A DNA stretch of 64,000 bases from Acidicapsa acidisoli (GTDB lineage Bacteria > Acidobacteriota > Terriglobia > Terriglobales > Acidobacteriaceae), in contig NZ_JAGSYI010000002.1 in the NCBI RefSeq assembly GCF_025685625.1, positions 1,798,001-1,862,000 on the forward strand. Direction: 5' to 3'. The notes beneath the pieces are model-generated. The model saw only the letters and a list, made by a program, of their open reading frames with translations, did no database searches and was not told the origin of the DNA. Positions 29,496 to 37,628 of the stretch are shown here, piece after piece. The position numbers and the translations under genes were made by a program. How positions within the stretch are numbered: the stretch's first letter is position 1; every line of letters starts with the position of its first letter.

Positions 29496-30284
29496 ATGTC
29501 CCCCGAAAAGACGACTGACACCGAGATCTCGCAAGTTATAACGCTCTCCGGCACAGCGGGGCAATCGCGGGAACGAGTCTTTCTTGGCACCTCTGGTTGG
29601 GCGTATACGAGTTGGAGGCCCGGATTCTATCCTGAAGCGCTTCCTCAAAAGAAGTTCCTGGAATATTACGCAACTCAATTGAACTCGGTTGAGGTGAACT
29701 ACACCTTCCGCCAGTTGCCGACCGAGGGGACGCTGACGGGCTGGCTGGCGGCGACCGGCGACCACTTTCGCTTTTCGTTTAAAGCGCCGCAGCGAATCAC
29801 TCACATCCTTCGACTCAGCGACTGTTCAGACGCAGTCGCCGCGTTGTCGCGTGCACTCGCCCCGGTCGCGGCTGCTGGACGCATGGGTGTGCTGCTCTTC
29901 CAGCTTCCGCCTAATTTCAAGGCCGACGTACTTCGTCTCGACTCCTTCCTTGTGGATGCGAATCCGTATGGTTTGCGGATGGCTTTCGAGTTTCGGCACA
30001 GCACTTGGTTTTGCGACGAAGTGTATGCTGTGCTGCGGCATCATCGGGCCGCGCTCTGTGTTGCCGAGAGCGAAGATCTGGTGACTCCGGATATTGTGAC
30101 CGCTTCCTTCATGTGCTATCGATTGCGTAAGAGCGGATACTCCGCAGAGCAGCTCGACGCGCTTCAGAATACCCTGCGCAGGCGGCGTTCCGAGGGCGAG
30201 GTATTTGCCTATTTTAAGCACGAGGAGCAGCCGACCGGGGCTATCTGCGCGGTGAATACACTCCGAAGACTCCAGCTTCCATGA
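29496..30284 (+). CDS. DUF72 (YecE-like) protein
   Basis: The product has about 262 residues from ATG 29496, which has GGGAAGA upstream and lies just before the conserved start; an in-frame TTG at 29448 is less likely. DUF72 signatures are present: FLGTSGWAYTSWRPGFYP at the start, a LNSVEVNYTFRQLP strand, FRFSFKAPQRITH, an LLFQLPPNFKAD turn, an AFEFRHSTWF strand and, near the end, VFAYFKHEEQPTGAICAV. This TIM-barrel-like family is widespread, has conserved acidic and histidine residues suggestive of an enzyme, and has no established reaction. It precedes the sigma-54 activator by 164 bp on the same strand, but nothing shows functional linkage. Confidence 0.85.
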   Translation: MSPEKTTDTEISQVITLSGTAGQSRERVFLGTSGWAYTSWRPGFYPEALPQKKFLEYYATQLNSVEVNYTFRQLPTEGTLTGWLAATGDHFRFSFKAPQRITHILRLSDCSDAVAALSRALAPVAAAGRMGVLLFQLPPNFKADVLRLDSFLVDANPYGLRMAFEFRHSTWFCDEVYAVLRHHRAALCVAESEDLVTPDIVTASFMCYRLRKSGYSAEQLDALQNTLRRRRSEGEVFAYFKHEEQPTGAICAVNTLRRLQLP

Positions 30285-30448
30285 GCAGCCTTGGTAGCGG
30301 CTATACAAGCAAACGTAGCCACTGCGACGTGCTGAATGTATGGCAATCCAAAAGCAGCTAAGCCCATTGATAATGGTTAGACTCGGCACTGCAATGCAAT
30401 CTACAAGCCGGGTAAGTCATCCGGTTTTGTAGGATAGACTCTGGATAA

Positions 30449-33037
30449 ATGACGCAGATGATCTCCCCATCCAAATGCGAGATCAGCGGAGATGTCTCCG
30501 TCCTGCAGCGGAGCGCTGGGAGACGGTACGAAGCGGTGCTGTGCCTTAGCGAAATCCTCTCCCAGTGCCGCGAACCCGAGGATCTTACGAAGATCCTCTC
30601 TGATCAGCTGCGAGAATTTCTCGAGTTCCTGCAGTTCTACATCATTGTCTACAAAGAGAACTCGACGGAAGTCGAATGGATGGTGGTCGGCCAAGAAAAG
30701 AGCCTCGTAGCCGGCTATGCGGATGTACCCGTCGAACAGCGGCCGTCATGGCAGGCATACACTACCCAGGAGCCGTTTCATATTCGCGACTGGAACACGG
30801 ATGAAAGAGTACCGGCACGCCTCAAGGATGGAATTTCCGCTCAAGGACTCGACGTCGGCCCGCTTGTTTTTGTTCCCCTCACTACGCCGCATCGTCGTCT
30901 GGGCGCGTTGGGCATGTCCGGCTCTCCTGGAACCGAATACAGCAGCGATGACATTGGCTTCTTGCGACTCATTGGCCGAGTCGTCGCATTCGCGATTGAC
31001 GACAATTTCAATCTTCGCCAGGCGCAGGCGGCTCGCGCGGAATTAGAGCGTCAGAATGAAAAGCTCCAGCGCAGTGAACGCGAGCTGCGCGATGTTATCG
31101 AATCGATTCCATCCATGGCGTGGTCAGCCTCGGCAGACGGAGCGGCTGAATTCTTCAATCGACGCTGGTTAGATTACGCTGGGCTTACGGCGGAGCAGGC
31201 ACAGGGTTGGGGCTGGACAACTGCGGTCCACCCTGACGATCTAAAAATTCTGGTGGAGTACTGGCAGGGGATGTTGGTTTCCGGCAAACCGGGTGAGATC
31301 GAAGGGCGTCTGCGCCGTTTCGACGGAGTATACCGGTGGTTCTATTTCCGCGCGACTCCGGCCTTCGACGAAAGCGGAAAGGTTGTCAAATGGTACGGAA
31401 CGAATACCGATATTGAGCTACGAAAAAAAGCTGAGCAGAATCTCGCCGTCCAGAACACTCGACTTCAACTCCTTCTGAAGCTCACCAACCAGATCACTTC
31501 CGATTTGGAGCTTCGGAAAGTGCTGCGTGCAATCTCTGCCAGTATTCGGGAACTGATGCATTGTGATCTAGTACACATCTCGTTGCCTGATGCAGCATCG
31601 GGAAAATTCCGGGTGCACGCATTGGATTTTCCGGACGGCAGAGGCTTTGTTAAAGAAGAACTACTCATCACTCCGGCGGGCGTCGCCAAACGAGCTCTTG
31701 AAACCCTGGAGCCAGCGGTTAGACGCATAGGCAATCGCGAGGATTTTCCTCCCGATTATTACGAGTTACTGCTCGCTGAGGGAGTGAAGAGTCAATGTGT
31801 GATACCTCTCGTGAATCAGGGGCGAGTAGTCGGAGTCCTGGCAATTGCCCGGACCACAGACAACGGATTTACGCCTGAGGATATCGACTTCCTTAAAGAC
31901 GCGTCCGGGCAAATAGCGATTGCCATTGAGAATTGCCTCGCGTTTCGCGAAGTTACCGAACTCAAAGAAAAACTTGCTCAGGAAAAGCTCTATCTTGAAT
32001 CAGAGATCCGGGGCGACATGGAGTTCGGGCAGATTGTGGGGCACAGCCCGGCGCTGAAGCGCGTTCTGCAATTGGTCGAAACCGTCGCAGCCGTCGATTC
32101 AACCGTCCTGGTACTCGGTGAAACGGGCACGGGCAAAGAGTTGATTGCCCGTGCGATTCACGATAGCAGCCGCCGGAAGGATCGCACCTTTGTGAAGGTG
32201 AACTGTGCCGCCATTCCGACGGGCCTGCTAGAGAGCGAGTTGTTTGGTCATGAAAAGGGAGCCTTCACGGGCGCGATTATTCAAAAGATCGGCAGGCTGG
32301 AACTTGCCGATCAAGGCACCCTGTTCCTGGACGAAGTTGGCGATATTCCGCTTGAAATCCAACCCAAGCTATTGCGGGCGTTGCAGGAGCGGGAATTCGA
32401 ACGGCTCGGAAGCACGCGCACCCGCAGGGTGAACATTCGACTCATCGCCGCCACCAACCGCGATCTCGAAAAAATGATGGCTGAGCATGAATTCCGCAGC
32501 GATCTGTACTACCGCCTGAACGTGTTTCCGATCCGAATACCGCCGCTGCGGGAGCGCAAGGAAGACATTCCTCTACTCGTGAGCTATTTCGTTGAGAAAT
32601 TCTCCAAACAGATGCAGAAGAAAATCGACAGCATTCCTACGGCTGTAATGAAGAGCCTGAAGATATGGGAGTGGCCCGGAAACATCCGCGAACTTGAGAA
32701 CCTCGTCGAACGCGCGGTAATCCTTACGCGCGGCAGATCGCTGGAGGCTCCGTTATCGGAGCTACGCAAAGTGGCGGTTGATAATGGTGAGCGCACCCCG
32801 GCAGATCAAGACAACATTGCCCGCATTGTGAAAGAGACCATCAAAGCACTACATGCGAACAGCGCCGTGGCGGATCAGGATACGAAGAAGCAGAGAGACG
32901 CGATCGTGCGCGCGCTCACTGAATCGAATGGGCGCGTGGGTGGCACCGATGGAGCCGCCGCGTACATGGGCCTCAACCGCACTACTCTCCTCGCCCGAAT
33001 GAAAAAACTCGGCATCGATGCCCGGGACTATGCCTGA
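30449..33037 (+). CDS. Sigma-54-dependent transcriptional activator: GAF - PAS - GAF - AAA+ - Fis HTH
   Basis: The 862-residue product is a complete bacterial enhancer-binding protein. Residues about 35-190 form a first GAF domain, 212-325 a PAS/PAC domain ([15 protein letters not shown] ... [14 protein letters not shown]) and 345-505 a second GAF. The AAA+ domain has Walker A GETGTGKE near 557, the sigma-54 contact loop GAFTGA near 605, Walker B LFLDEVGD near 625 and an R-finger region. A Fis-type helix-turn-helix is at about 827-862 ([20 protein letters not shown]). There is no receiver domain, so control is probably by ligand binding to the GAF/PAS part, as in FhlA or NorR. Directly downstream lie two sigma-54 promoters, each with an inverted repeat upstream, so the following STAS-like/SDR/hydrolase/reductase genes are the likely targets. 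Confidence 0.92.
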
Positions 33038-33052
33038 TGCACTCAGCATAAG

Positions 33053-33071
33053 TGTCAAAGCTGCTTTGACA
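33053..33071. promoter_or_regulatory. Inverted repeat, probable activator binding site (UAS 1)
   Basis: TGTCAAA and TTTGACA, perfect 7-base arms, flank a 5-base centre. Its centre is 78 bp upstream of the -24 GG of the next sigma-54 promoter. It begins 16 bp after the activator stop codon and lacks a T tract, so a terminator is less likely. Confidence 0.65.
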
Positions 33072-33137
33072 GTCTCAACTCTCGTCAGCCGAGCCCTATT
33101 CCGTACTGAAAACAAAAGTACTTACCGCTCCGAGCGT

Positions 33138-33155
33138 TTGGCAGCCGCCTTGCTT
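33138..33155 (+). promoter_or_regulatory. Sigma-54 promoter (-24/-12) for the STAS-like gene
   Basis: TTGGCA, then GCCGCC, then TTGCTT gives GG at 33140-33141 and GC at 33152-33153, exactly 10 bases apart, matching TGGCAC-N5-TTGCW well. A start site near 33164 would leave a leader of about 17 bases before ATG 33181. Confidence 0.75.
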
Positions 33156-33180
33156 CCTGACGCCTTAGGGACAGGTGCGC

Positions 33181-33507
33181 ATGTTGAAGATATCGCTTGT
33201 CGATGGCCAACGCGAACGCAAGCTCATTGTGGAGGGCACACTAGTACCCCCCTGGGTCAGTGAACTCGAAATCGCCTGCGAAAAAGCAGGAGATGATCTT
33301 GATGGCCGCAAACTCGTCGTTGACCTGAGAGGCCTGACGCGAATCGCTCCGGAGGGAGAGCGTGTGCTCTTGCAATTGATAAAAAACAAGATCAAGCTCC
33401 AATGCGGCGTCTTTGTGAAGGAGCTTCTGAGACAACTTGTTCGCAGCACTCATCAGAACGCATCGGCCGCGACAGATGTCCTAAATGATGTGGATTCGGA
33501 AGGATGA
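33181..33507 (+). CDS. Small STAS-like protein
   Basis: The 108-residue product starts at ATG 33181 (MLKISLVDG); a GTG two codons earlier is possible. The pattern fits a STAS-like fold: an N-terminal strand pair (RKLIVEGTLVPPWVSELE), a helix, a central hydrophobic strand (KLVVDLRGLTRIAPEG) and a helix (ERVLLQLIKNKI), followed by another strand and helix (GVFVKELLRQLV). STAS proteins are anti-anti-sigma-type or ligand-binding modules. Similar single-domain proteins occur next to catabolic genes in acidobacteria with unknown role. The gene has its own sigma-54 promoter and upstream repeat, between the activator gene and the SDR operon, so it is probably co-controlled with the catabolic genes and may modulate the response. 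Cytoplasmic. Confidence 0.7.
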   Translation: MLKISLVDGQRERKLIVEGTLVPPWVSELEIACEKAGDDLDGRKLVVDLRGLTRIAPEGERVLLQLIKNKIKLQCGVFVKELLRQLVRSTHQNASAATDVLNDVDSEG

Positions 33508-33541
33508 GTGTAAGGTCAGCCCGAGATGGGCCTGGAGCGAC

Positions 33542-33570
33542 TGTCAACGCCCTCGATAACAGCCTTGACA
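33542..33570. promoter_or_regulatory. Inverted repeat, probable activator binding site (UAS 2)
   Basis: TGTCAA (33542-33547) and TTGACA (33565-33570) flank 17 bases. The half-sites equal those of UAS 1 but lie 10 bp, about one DNA turn, further apart. The centre is 87 bp upstream of the -24 GG of the SDR operon promoter. Confidence 0.55.
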
Positions 33571-33640
33571 CCTTCCTCCTTGTCTCGATGCTTCGAATGC
33601 GTCACCACCCTGTTTTCAATCGCTTACCGGAAGCTGAGAG

Positions 33641-33658
33641 TTGGCACGCTGATTGCAT
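33641..33658 (+). promoter_or_regulatory. Sigma-54 promoter (-24/-12) for the SDR operon
   Basis: TTGGCACG-CTGA-TTGCAT is nearly the ideal sigma-54 consensus. GG at 33643-33644 and GC at 33655-33656 are 10 bases apart. A start near 33668 gives a leader of about 35 bases to the GGGAGG-preceded ATG at 33702. Confidence 0.85.
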
Positions 33659-33701
33659 TCCTGCCAGCGCAGGCCAACTGCCACAACCATGGGAGGTAGT
33701 A

Positions 33702-34541
33702 ATGAGCACCACAACCGAGACGACTCTTCACATTCCTAATCCTGCAAGCCATGCTGCGCAGAAGCCTCGCGCAGCGCTGAATCACGTAGGCGCCAAGCGG
33801 CTCGCGGGCAAAATCGCGGTCATCACTGGCGGCTCGACTGGGATGGGTCTGGCCACAGCAAAGCGATTTGTACTGGAAGGGGCGGATCACGTCTTCATCA
33901 CGGGCCGTCGCAAGGATGCGTTGGAATCTGCCATTGCTGAAATCGGCGAAAAGGTGACGGCCGTCCCAGGCGACGTCGCCAGCCTGAGCGACCTTGACCG
34001 AGTGTACGAGTTAGTCGATGGATATGGTCGAAAAATCGACGTGGTCTTCGCGAACGCTGGGATTTCACAAGTGGCACCGTTGGGAACTGTCGACGAGAAA
34101 TTCTTCGACCTTCACTTTGATGCGAATGTGAAGGGACTGTTTTTCACGGTGCAGAAGGCGCTTCCTCTGCTAAAGGATGGCGCGTCGATCATCCTGAACG
34201 CATCGATTGCCACCATCAAGGGCTTTCCCGGCATCAGCGTGTATAGCGCCACAAAGGCCGCTGTCCGATCCTTCGCACGCACATGGACCAATGAACTCCG
34301 CGAACGCCATATCCGCGTGAACGCGATTAGCCCGGGCCATATCGATACGCCGATATTCGAAAGCTGGCAGACCGGCGAGGCGCTCACTCAGATGAAAGAA
34401 GAGCTCGCAAAGAACGTTCCATTAGGACGACTCGGAGATCCGGATGAAATTGCCAAGGCCGTCGCATTTCTCGCATCGGACGAAGCAAGTTACATCTCTG
34501 GCATCGAGCTCTTCGTCGATGGCGGCGTGGCGCAAATCTAA
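33702..34541 (+). CDS. Short-chain dehydrogenase/reductase (SDR)
   Basis: The start at 33702 has GGGAGGTAGTA upstream; longer in-frame readings run through the promoter and are rejected. The 279-residue enzyme has the classical SDR set: TGGSTGMG dinucleotide-binding turn near residue 41, NAGIS, an active-site Ser in LNASIAT, and the YSATK catalytic pair (Tyr and Lys). A DVAS-type turn and the VDGGVAQI end also fit. The Arg residues of TGRRKD after strand 2 suggest NADP(H). Family members interconvert alcohols and ketones on many substrates. As first gene of a sigma-54-controlled operon followed by a putative diketone hydrolase, it may oxidise a hydroxy-ketone to a 1,3-diketone; this is an inference. 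Cytoplasmic. Confidence 0.9.
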   Translation: MSTTTETTLHIPNPASHAAQKPRAALNHVGAKRLAGKIAVITGGSTGMGLATAKRFVLEGADHVFITGRRKDALESAIAEIGEKVTAVPGDVASLSDLDRVYELVDGYGRKIDVVFANAGISQVAPLGTVDEKFFDLHFDANVKGLFFTVQKALPLLKDGASIILNASIATIKGFPGISVYSATKAAVRSFARTWTNELRERHIRVNAISPGHIDTPIFESWQTGEALTQMKEELAKNVPLGRLGDPDEIAKAVAFLASDEASYISGIELFVDGGVAQI

Positions 34542-34646
34542 TCAGCCGCATGCTTTCATTCCAGTCCGATCCTGAGTCTTCCGAGACTATAGGACAGAGG
34601 CGGAGGATTCAAGCTCAACAATCAAAAACCGAAGATGGAGAATCCT

Positions 34647-35453
34647 ATGCAAACCGCTCAAGCGGATTACTTCACCGCATATCACAATCTGAAGCTGACT
34701 CGCGATGCCGATGGCGTGCTGGTTGTCGAGTTCCATAGCAACGGAGGGCCGTGCATTATGAACGCGCAGGGTCACACGGAGTTTGTCGATGCGTTTTACC
34801 GGATCGGACAAGACCGCGCCAACAAGATCGTTATCCTCACCGGCGCGGGAGGGGACTTCATTATCGATGTTGACTGGTCATCGTTCGGCGACGTTTCTGA
34901 TCCCGGCGTCTGGAGCCAGGTTCACGACGAGGGCGTTCAGGTTCTGGAAAACATCGCTAACATACGTGTGCCGGTGATCGCGGCGATCGAGGGACGCGCC
35001 TACGTGCACTCCGATTATGTACTGCTCGCCAATGTCATTGTTGCGGGCGATGGTGCGACCTTTCAGGATGTTGCGCACTACGCCGTAGGGGTTGCGCCTG
35101 GGGACGGCATCTTTACGACGTGGAGTTATCGCGCCGGCGCAGGAAGAGCCGAAGCGTTCCTTCTAAATCCGCAACCATTGAAGGCGCGCACCGCACAGGA
35201 ATGGGGAGTCGTGGCTGAGGTTGTGCCGAACGGTAAGACTCTCGCCAGGGCACGCGAATTGGCCGCGCTCTATTTGAAGGCCCCAGAGGTAACTCGGCGT
35301 AACACGCGGGTTCACTTTATCCAGCCCCTGAAAGAGCGCGTTGCGCGGGAAGTCGGGTATGGGCTATCGCTTGAAGGAGCGTCAGCGGCCGACCTAGTGA
35401 AGTCGATGCATTCAAACACGGAACCCGAAGCTGCGACGGCAGGTGTTGCATAA
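34647..35453 (+). CDS. Crotonase-fold C-C hydrolase, 6-oxocamphor-hydrolase-like
   Basis: ATG 34647 is preferred over 34635 because GGAG lies six bases upstream. The 268-residue product has the crotonase fold (KIVILTGAGGDF, VPVIAAIEG, ATFQD, GVVAEVV). It differs from CoA-thioester enzymes and, as far as I can align from memory, follows 6-oxocamphor hydrolase of Rhodococcus. The three catalytic residues of that enzyme (His122, His145, Asp154) correspond to His121 (RAYVHSD), His144 (QDVAHYA) and Asp153 (APGDG) here. Flanking blocks such as RENKVVILTG versus RANKIVILTG also match. That enzyme cleaves a cyclic 1,3-diketone by retro-Claisen hydrolysis without CoA. A generic enoyl-CoA hydratase call is therefore less apt. 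It is the second gene of the operon, 105 bp after the SDR. Confidence 0.78.
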   Translation: MQTAQADYFTAYHNLKLTRDADGVLVVEFHSNGGPCIMNAQGHTEFVDAFYRIGQDRANKIVILTGAGGDFIIDVDWSSFGDVSDPGVWSQVHDEGVQVLENIANIRVPVIAAIEGRAYVHSDYVLLANVIVAGDGATFQDVAHYAVGVAPGDGIFTTWSYRAGAGRAEAFLLNPQPLKARTAQEWGVVAEVVPNGKTLARARELAALYLKAPEVTRRNTRVHFIQPLKERVAREVGYGLSLEGASAADLVKSMHSNTEPEAATAGVA

Positions 35454-35564: not shown

Positions 35565-37073
35565 ATGAACAACACCAAGAACGAAACCACGAGTGATACC
35601 AGGGTCACTTCATCCGGACAATTGCCGAAGGAGCCGCTCGTCGAAGAGCTTGATCTCCTCATTCTAGGCGGTGGCACCGGATCAACAATCGCCGCGTGGA
35701 CGTTTGCCGCGGAAGGCAAGCGTGTCGCCGCCATCGACCGCAAATACATCGGTGGATCCTGTCCAAACATCGCGTGCCTTCCAAGCAAGAACATCATCCA
35801 CAGTGCCAAAGTCGCGTCATATTTCCGCCACAGCAACGAGTTTGGAATCACTCATAACGGCTTCACAATCGATATGTCAGGAGTTCGTGAACGCAAGCGC
35901 AAGATGGTGCGCAGCTTGAACGAAATGTATTTGAGCAATTATGAGAAGACAGGCGCGGAGTTCATTCCAGGAACGGGGCGATTCATTGCTCCCAAAACGG
36001 TGGAGGTCGTCCTCGCCGACGGGACCATCCGTCGACTCCGCGGCATGAACGTAATCGTCAGCACCGGGACGCGCGCCAAGCTCGAAGCTATTCCTGGTCT
36101 CGCTGAAGCGCAACCGCTGACGCACATTGAGGCTCTGGAACTCGACCAGATTCCCGAACACCTGGTTGTCGTTGGCAGCGGCTATGTCGGAGTTGAGTTT
36201 GCGCAGGCGATGCGCCGTTTCGGCAGCCGTGTGACGGTAATCGGACGCAGGCCACGCTTGATGCCCCAGGAAGACGAAGACGTGAGTGAAGCTCTTCGCG
36301 GTCTACTGGAAGACGAGGGCATCGACGTTCTTCTGAATACGCGGATCAAGCGCGTATCAGGAATATCAGGAGACTCGGTGAGAGTTCTCATCGAGCAAAA
36401 CGGAACGGAAAAGATTCTCGACGCGAGCCATCTGCTAGTAGCTGCGGGACGCACTCCGAATACCGAGGGGCTTGGACTCGAGTTGGCCGGTGTGGAACTG
36501 ACGGATCGCGGATATATCAAGGTCAACGAACGGCTACAGACAACCGCGCCGGGCGTTTGGGCCATTGGCGAAGTTGCAGGCAGCCCGCAGTTCACACACA
36601 TCAGCGTCGACGATTTCCGGGTCGTACATAACAACCTCAATGGAGTTCACCATGTGACCACCGGAAGACAGGTTCCTTATTGCCTGTTCACGGACCCTGA
36701 ATTGGCCCGCATTGGATTGAATGAGAATGAGGCCAGAGCTCAAGGCACTGCGTATCGCTTGTTCAAAGTTCCAATGGAATCCAATCTGCGAGCGCGCACC
36801 CTCTCGGAAACGCGCGGGTTCGTGAAGGCGCTGGTCGAAGCTGATAGCGATCGCATCCTCGGCTTCACGGCATTCGGTGTCGGAGCTGCGGAGATTATGT
36901 CATCCGTCCAGATCGCGATGAATGCCGGAGTGCTCTATACGGCCTTGCGCGACGCCATCCTGACACACCCAACATTGGTCGAGGGGCTGATACCACTGTT
37001 CTCTTCCACGCCATCAATTCCAAGAATGGAATCGGAAGTGACGACCTCGCAGGCACTGACAGCAACACGCTAA
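35565..37073 (+). CDS. FAD-dependent pyridine nucleotide-disulfide oxidoreductase (class I)
   Basis: ATG 35565 follows GGAGGAA at good spacing; an in-frame reading from 35454 is unlikely. The 502-residue flavoprotein resembles mercuric reductase and dihydrolipoamide dehydrogenase. It has an FAD dinucleotide-binding motif GGGTGS near residue 35 and the redox-active pair Cys66-x4-Cys71 in GGSCPNIAC. The NAD(P)-binding motif is GSGYVG near 204, the second FAD motif (VWAIGEV) is near 350, and the C-terminal dimer interface carries the catalytic HPT...E (THPTLVEGL). The MerA-type extra N-terminal metal-binding domain and C-terminal Cys pair are absent. Third gene of the sigma-54 operon. Its place in the pathway is not evident; it could regenerate a thiol cofactor or reduce an unknown disulfide or quinone. 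Confidence 0.85.
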   Translation: MNNTKNETTSDTRVTSSGQLPKEPLVEELDLLILGGGTGSTIAAWTFAAEGKRVAAIDRKYIGGSCPNIACLPSKNIIHSAKVASYFRHSNEFGITHNGFTIDMSGVRERKRKMVRSLNEMYLSNYEKTGAEFIPGTGRFIAPKTVEVVLADGTIRRLRGMNVIVSTGTRAKLEAIPGLAEAQPLTHIEALELDQIPEHLVVVGSGYVGVEFAQAMRRFGSRVTVIGRRPRLMPQEDEDVSEALRGLLEDEGIDVLLNTRIKRVSGISGDSVRVLIEQNGTEKILDASHLLVAAGRTPNTEGLGLELAGVELTDRGYIKVNERLQTTAPGVWAIGEVAGSPQFTHISVDDFRVVHNNLNGVHHVTTGRQVPYCLFTDPELARIGLNENEARAQGTAYRLFKVPMESNLRARTLSETRGFVKALVEADSDRILGFTAFGVGAAEIMSSVQIAMNAGVLYTALRDAILTHPTLVEGLIPLFSSTPSIPRMESEVTTSQALTATR

Positions 37074-37607: not shown

Positions 37608-37628
37608 AGTTGCGACTCAGTCGCAACT
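37608..37628. promoter_or_regulatory. Operator palindrome 3 of the Fur-family gene
   Basis: AGTTGCGAC-TCA-GTCGCAACT has 9-base perfect arms centred at 37618, again 27 bp from the previous palindrome. It ends just before the ribosome site GGAGA at 37629. It resembles the GCGACTNAGTCGC-like boxes of some Fur-family proteins. Confidence 0.65.

Follow-up and report, generated by a model that had tools for sequence, protein, structure and literature searches.

The 64,000-nucleotide stretch of Acidicapsa acidisoli DNA analysed here (the window) very probably carries a local FhlA-like sigma-54 switch, in which one activator drives the promoter of an adjoining STAS-domain gene and that of a short-chain dehydrogenase/reductase (SDR) operon. 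The sites, the promoters, the domains, their conservation in relatives and an RpoN gene in the genome are all apparent at the level of sequence. The activator would sense a small molecule via its GAF/PAS region, bind TGTCAA/TTGACA half-sites that precede two -24/-12 promoters by about 80 bp, and use its AAA+ domain to open RNA polymerase-sigma-54 at both of them. Promoter 1 would serve the STAS-domain gene, and promoter 2 would serve an operon for the SDR, a beta-diketone hydrolase and a flavin disulfide reductase. The system appears to be a variant of the well-known FhlA-like switch, to which it would add a clue to the recognition residue and a recurring set of STAS and sigma-like genes.

Upstream sites and sigma-54 promoters

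The proposed activator site of the STAS promoter, UAS1 (TGTCAA-N7-TTGACA, 33053..33071, centre 33062), reads TGTCAAAGCTGCTTTGACA and is a perfect 19-bp palindrome with arms of 9 bp. A palindrome test of this kind (loop of at most 3) returned three other rows in the 64-kb window, two of which are one and the same site. The first -24/-12 element, TGGCAGCCGCCTTGCT (33139..33154, forward strand), carries 10 of the 11 consensus bases, and its expected transcription start is near 33164. The second site, UAS2 (TGTCAA-N17-TTGACA, 33542..33570, centre 33556), is more accurately a three-half-site array, the form that it takes in relatives; its middle half-site, ATAACA in the window, is degenerate here and in one genome of another genus (G119) and is good in a genome of a second one (G333). 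The element that follows, TGGCACGCTGATTGCA (33642..33657, forward strand), has all 11 consensus bases and an expected start near 33668, and its counterparts lie at L052:9529 in G119 and at L269:3313 in G333. A perfect palindrome, AGTTGCGACTCAGTCGCAACT, is also present at 37608-37628, at the start of a Fur-family ORF.

Both elements consist of GG-N10-GC in a TGGCAC/TTGCW context and are, by sequence, sigma-54 promoters. The centres of the repeats are located 78 bp (UAS1) and 87 bp (UAS2) 5' of the GG of the respective element. An earlier note on this DNA had claimed exactly this spacing and these distances, and the coordinates bear out both; its description of the sites as inverted repeats holds for UAS1, the perfect palindrome, and is amended for UAS2 to the three-half-site array recognizable in G333.

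Judging promoters from the -24/-12 consensus alone proved uninformative, because matches with at most two mismatches number 35 in the window versus 33.8 in shuffles; the one at 33642 is the only match free of mismatches. Eighteen matches in the window score at least 9, and only the two elements described above have at least two half-site hexamers 30-140 bp upstream. Scans of the 7.1-Mb genome for one half-site plus a promoter came too close to their controls (34 versus 18 for TGACA, 69 versus 46 for CGACA), and two half-sites were therefore required in the genome pattern. This combined pattern, TGTCR-N4..24-YGACA-N45..75-TGGC-N8-TGC, occurs five times, versus two occurrences of the reversed control pattern. 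Two of the five are the UAS1 and UAS2 promoters, and the repeat part of the other three lacks both TGTC[AG]A and T[CT]GACA. The earlier idea of a self-contained regulon stands for this genome, and only within the reach of this combined-pattern scan.

We also considered an IHF site as a defining part of the arrangement. Of 31 loci, 26 have a match to an IHF-like consensus, WATCAANNNNTTR, that lies between site and promoter and has at most two mismatches (8.5 in shuffles); the consensus was picked after looking at the loci. The match in the window is weak, with three mismatches, and the IHF site was rejected as a defining part on that account.

The adjacent activator and known systems

The activator gene (30449..33037, forward strand) encodes an FhlA-like, one-component sigma-54 activator of 862 aa with the order GAF, PAS, GAF, AAA+ and C-terminal HTH. 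Pfam recognizes two GAF stretches, the PAS domain, a sigma-54 activation domain and an AAA+ lid. The sigma-54 activation domain (PF00158) scores 243 bits, which places the AAA+ part among those of enhancer-binding proteins, and GAFTGA is intact in the translation; the domains and the translation thus confirm the earlier description of a complete activator with GAF and PAS sensors. No Pfam HTH family matches the protein at E 0.001; its C-terminus resembles the HTH of E. coli FhlA and can be assigned as a C-terminal DNA-binding HTH. The RpoN DNA-binding domain is matched once in the source genome. With regard to autoregulation, no half-site hexamers were seen by eye in 30250-30470.

The best NCBIfam match of the activator is the FhlA model NF011958, which spans residues 332-859. 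The score of 533 bits lies below the equivalog cut-off of 830, and the protein is accordingly not assigned as an FhlA equivalog. FhlA receives its input through GAF; the window activator differs in having a PAS domain as well. The likeness to the formate hydrogenlyase regulon of E. coli includes the AAA+ activator, a very similar HTH (GLKRTTLLSRMKR in FhlA) and the TGTC-type half-sites arrayed in the hyc-hyp region. However, the TGTCAA/TTGACA half-sites of the window are a one-base variant of TGTCGA/TCGACA and do not make up an FhlA-type array, and no hydrogenase gene is present among the identified neighbors. Inverted TGT/ACA repeats with spacers of 10-12 bp, similar to those of FhlA and NifA, precede sigma-54 promoters in 15 of 39 clostridial EBP groups, according to PMC6615313. 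The window differs from this NifA-like pattern in the TGT-N13-ACA layout of UAS1, in the three-half-site array of UAS2 and in its targets. The earlier note had called the regulon undescribed, a claim to be tempered, given that the activator, the layout of the sites and the type of promoter are all of the known FhlA-like kind.

In the open-licence literature, we found no on-topic paper on sigma-54 in Acidobacteria/Acidobacteriota and none on a STAS domain together with sigma54 and an enhancer binding protein, and a search for a STAS domain with RND efflux gave only metagenome papers without the term STAS domain. The main text of a 2025 comparison of sigma-54 regulons contains 0 occurrences of "acidobacteri" (PMC12316311).

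Conservation of the arrangement in related genomes

Relatives of the STAS protein are encoded in 48 of 200 same-family genomes, at 62 places (the window is counted in both numbers), and in 17 of 297 genomes across the phylum, four of them same-family, with the own genome included. We examined 81 STAS places, namely these 62 and 19 further ones; another 14 new places with E > 1e-20 fall outside the 81, and STAS places found in other families were left out of promoter scoring. A same-strand activator ends no more than 900 bp upstream of the STAS start at 52 of the 80 places in relatives. It is located farther upstream at 5 places, and none was found in the DNA examined at 23, some of which are cut by contig ends.

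Promoters were counted at the 79 of the 81 places that have at least 250 bp upstream. The close set comprises 34 loci (33 without the window) with an AAA+ identity of at least 75% and an Ala or Ser activator; it leaves out G107, in which the helix was not read, and G178_C606, which has Leu and a STAS promoter with TCGACA. A -24/-12 element scoring at least 9 lies between -75 and -25 relative to the STAS start in 24 of the 33 close relatives (shuffle mean 0.23), and at least two half-sites precede the STAS gene in 26 of them (shuffle mean 0.4). The combination of an element scoring at least 8 with two half-sites in the right geometry is present in 25 (shuffle mean 0.005, with a maximum of 1 in 200 shuffles), and the full arrangement is missing in 8. 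Only 5 of the 43 farther STAS places (AAA+ below 75% or none found) fit. In the 51-bp STAS promoter windows of the 81 loci, 32 occurrences of the geometry were counted, versus 42 in 1.84 million other strand-bases; among these 42 are the second promoters of G119, G333 and the window itself. Several relatives have three-half-site arrays as their sites, as does the E. coli hyc-hyp region.

Both promoters recur in the two other genera. G119 (locus L052) keeps the activator AAA+ domain (86%), the STAS gene (56%), the hydrolase (82%) and the reductase (71%). Its STAS promoter has TGTCAGGATCGCGTTGACA upstream, and its second promoter consists of TGTCAA...TTGACA followed by an 11/11 -24/-12 element and then by the hydrolase gene, with SDR genes coming later. 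G333 (locus L269) keeps the whole activator, including the sensor (74%), and two promoters, each with TGTCAA/TTGACA; no homologues of the SDR, hydrolase or reductase were found behind the second promoter in the DNA examined. The earlier note had suggested looking for the same repeats in related genomes. They are kept before related STAS genes, and the second promoter is kept in G119 and G333, so the in-silico refutation by non-conservation that the note had envisaged fails.

A recognition-helix residue varies with the half-site base

One position of the recognition helix varies among the activators, being Ala in the window and Ser in E. coli FhlA. For Ala or Ser activators with an AAA+ identity of at least 62%, window included, Ala activators adjoin TGTCAA/TTGACA in 22 of 24 hexamers (10 loci) and Ser activators adjoin TGTCGA/TCGACA in 74 of 79 (25 loci). 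The E. coli hyc-hyp region carries TGTCGA/TCGACA arrays, and we take FhlA to be their binder. Counted by locus, base and residue are associated at 8/9 against 1/26 (Fisher p=3e-6), a comparison that covers the 35 of 43 tree rows with sites and in which E. coli FhlA was coded by hand. In a tree of the AAA+ domain, from which the HTH and also G170 (with an AAA+ match of 56 aa) were omitted, the residue changed at least three times, in a direction that the tree leaves unfixed. The sites follow the residue in 2.5 of the 3 independent contrasts on average, and with only three contrasts the sign test, which has a floor of 0.25, cannot reach significance.

Discordant cases were also observed. G110_C29 has Ala with TCGACA at the STAS promoter, while further promoters there have TTGACA in one case and TCGACA in another; G092 has Ser with TGTCAA; an Ala-type activator in G161 lies beside a TCGACA/TGTCGA promoter; and the sites of G285 are mixed. 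Downstream of four Ala-bearing activators that are more distant, the 216-700 bp examined contain no hexamers. G037, which is outside all counts, has an Ala-type activator with TGTCAA/TTGACA sites, and no STAS gene was found there. Even with these exceptions, the covariation of helix and half-site supports the earlier proposal that the adjacent activator is the probable binder.

The critical third-helix residues in an alanine scan of LuxO include Ser423, Ile425, Tyr426, Arg427, Lys428 and Leu429 (PMC11407668). When aligned by eye from the residues named there, the variable position would correspond to LuxO Arg427.

We tentatively propose, with a confidence somewhat short of even, that Ser or Ala at this single helix position sets the reading of TGTCGA versus TGTCAA, that Acidobacteriota reused the switch to separate parallel activator-STAS modules, and that the ancestral output was a relay from sigma-54 via STAS to a sigma-70-like protein over efflux/detoxification operons. 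Activator and site can be paired over dozens of genomes, which offers a natural data set for the change of DNA specificity within one activator class.

The STAS gene and its sigma-like neighbors

The STAS-domain gene (33181..33507, forward strand) encodes 108 aa from an ATG at 33181, as in its homologues. An AF2 model of the protein has a pLDDT of 86, and its top Foldseek matches, the B. subtilis RsbV/RsbW complex and SpoIIAA complexes (TM about 0.6), identify the predicted fold as a STAS fold. At E 0.001 the window protein has no Pfam match; STAS_2 is reached at E 0.075, and 25 of 50 members of the STAS family match STAS_2 at E of at most 0.1. The predicted fold resembles that of the RsbV/SpoIIAA anti-sigma-factor antagonists. 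The window protein differs from them in having Glu, and no phosphorylatable Ser/Thr, at the position that we take, from an alignment by eye, to be the phosphorylated serine of SpoIIAA. Across the 50 members, the residue in this column is Glu in 20, Asp in 6, Ser in 4, Thr in 1 and another in 19. It also differs in that no HATPase kinase directly adjoins the STAS gene of the window; several HATPase_c_2 genes are present elsewhere in the source genome. We can only guess that the STAS protein may be a component of a partner switch or a feedback regulator.

Where at least 700 bp downstream are available (35 loci), a degenerate SigE/ECF-like (sigma-70-like) gene follows the STAS gene in 24; where at least 5 kb are (22 loci), an RND pump follows it in 11 (E 1e-5, window included in both). 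The sigma-like protein, encoded for instance at L091, L051, L253, L057 and L050, is about 200 aa long, and its gene often lies ahead of an RND efflux operon. Among these proteins, 8 of 13 scanned match Sigma70_r4_2 in Pfam at E of at most 0.01, and the NCBIfam SigE-family model matches both of the two that were tried. At L043:9557-10922, what follows the STAS gene is instead a gene with sigma region 2 together with one for an RsbW-like HATPase, in a partner-switching layout; L043 is the only one of the loci scanned for downstream genes with an RsbW-like gene near the STAS gene. The pairing of activators with sites across genomes gives a first handle on this recurring STAS/sigma-like module.

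There is no sigma-like gene beside the STAS gene in the window. A sigma-like gene was rejected as a part of the window module, the sole match in the genome (36%) being located on another contig (C1:2.33 Mb), in a 3.5-kb locus that contains just one TGTCGA hexamer.

Alternative explanations

The sites could be bound by a different FhlA-type activator of the same genome, the neighboring one being merely adjacent. Candidates exist, as the sigma-54 activation domain is matched 26 times in the genome, with 21 strong matches and the neighboring activator included. However, the half-site base tracks the recognition-helix residue of the adjacent activator over relatives, a same-strand activator ends within the same 900 bp at 52 of 80 related STAS places, and G333 retains the same sensor (74%) together with the same kind of site; we regard another activator as improbable. 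It is more improbable still that the repeats bind an unrelated repressor or a sigma-70-type regulator and that the -24/-12 likeness is accidental. Such an accident would fit the chance-level number of matches with at most two mismatches in the window, but not the combination of element and half-sites in 25 of 33 close relatives, versus 0.005 in shuffles, nor the 32 occurrences in the STAS promoter windows of 81 loci versus 42 in 1.84 million other strand-bases.

A more serious possibility, although one that we lean against, is that the conserved output is really the STAS gene, in a cascade from sigma-54 through STAS to a sigma-70-like protein, with the SDR operon recruited locally to the same activator. 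The presence of both promoters in G333 without the SDR operon would agree with such a cascade, as would the SigE/ECF-like gene and the RND pump found after the STAS gene (24 of 35 and 11 of 22 loci) and the sigma region-2 and RsbW-like HATPase genes of L043. The window itself fits it less well, having no sigma-like gene by the STAS gene and only one homologue in the genome (36%), on another contig and with a single TGTCGA. Glu at the SpoIIAA phosphoserine position likewise speaks against it. We favor the reading in which the adjacent activator drives both promoters of the window.

The second operon

The first gene of the second operon encodes the SDR (33702..34541, forward strand). It is followed on the same strand by a gene for a crotonase-fold beta-diketone hydrolase of 272 aa (34635..35453), which belongs to the 6-oxocamphor hydrolase (OCH)/Alr4455 group, and by one for an FAD-dependent pyridine nucleotide-disulfide oxidoreductase near RclA/MerA/lipoamide dehydrogenase (35565..37073, with the start codon assumed). 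The hydrolase matches 2j5g (E=2e-65) and 1o8u (E=2e-47), over residues 5-254 of its 272. In the alignment, counted by hand, its His125, His148, Asp157 and Glu247 coincide with His122, His145, Asp154 and Glu244 of OCH, which we take to be the catalytic residues. It differs from 6-oxocamphor hydrolase and Alr4455 in its setting, between SDR and disulfide-reductase genes and behind a sigma-54-type promoter. Of the 25 NCBIfam models among the matches listed, the reductase reaches the curated cut-off of none, and at 357 bits against the RclA cut-off of 740 it is not assigned to RclA; its best PDB match is 6kgy, presumably E. coli RclA. Judging from the enzyme families, the products of the operon probably oxidize a cyclic ketone or diketone and cleave it at a C-C bond, with an associated redox function. 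A beta-diketone hydrolase is thereby placed beneath a named, testable candidate regulator.

At E of at most 1e-40 the hydrolase is found in 17 of 300 same-family genomes, the own genome included. Within 3.5 kb of the hydrolase gene in 45 named loci (L290-L334, several of them cut by contig ends; L335, a 26% match, was left out), there is a same-strand SDR hit in 20, a reductase hit in 13 and an AAA+ hit in 5; for the most part, then, the hydrolase occurs with no activator of this kind nearby. These counts rule out that the SDR-hydrolase-reductase operon is regulated and conserved everywhere. Most of the named hydrolase relatives are Acidobacteria records. Relatives with 67-75% identity at L323 and L325-L331 come from six alphaproteobacterial records, four of them Erythrobacter, and two archaeal MAG records, possibly through gene transfer or misbinning.

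Residues 1-332 of the activator share 72% identity (332 aa) with part of a histidine kinase that the genome encodes elsewhere, at C1:67.9-70.4 kb; a second hydrolase gene (79%) lies about 13 kb away from the kinase gene. The proximity of this sensor-sharing kinase may loosely tie the sensor to the pathway. The region G000:C1:53985-72615 (L213, L056) contains this second hydrolase gene and the kinase gene along with an SDR gene, short broken pieces of hydrolase and reductase genes, and a gene for a sigma-54 activator of 349 aa.
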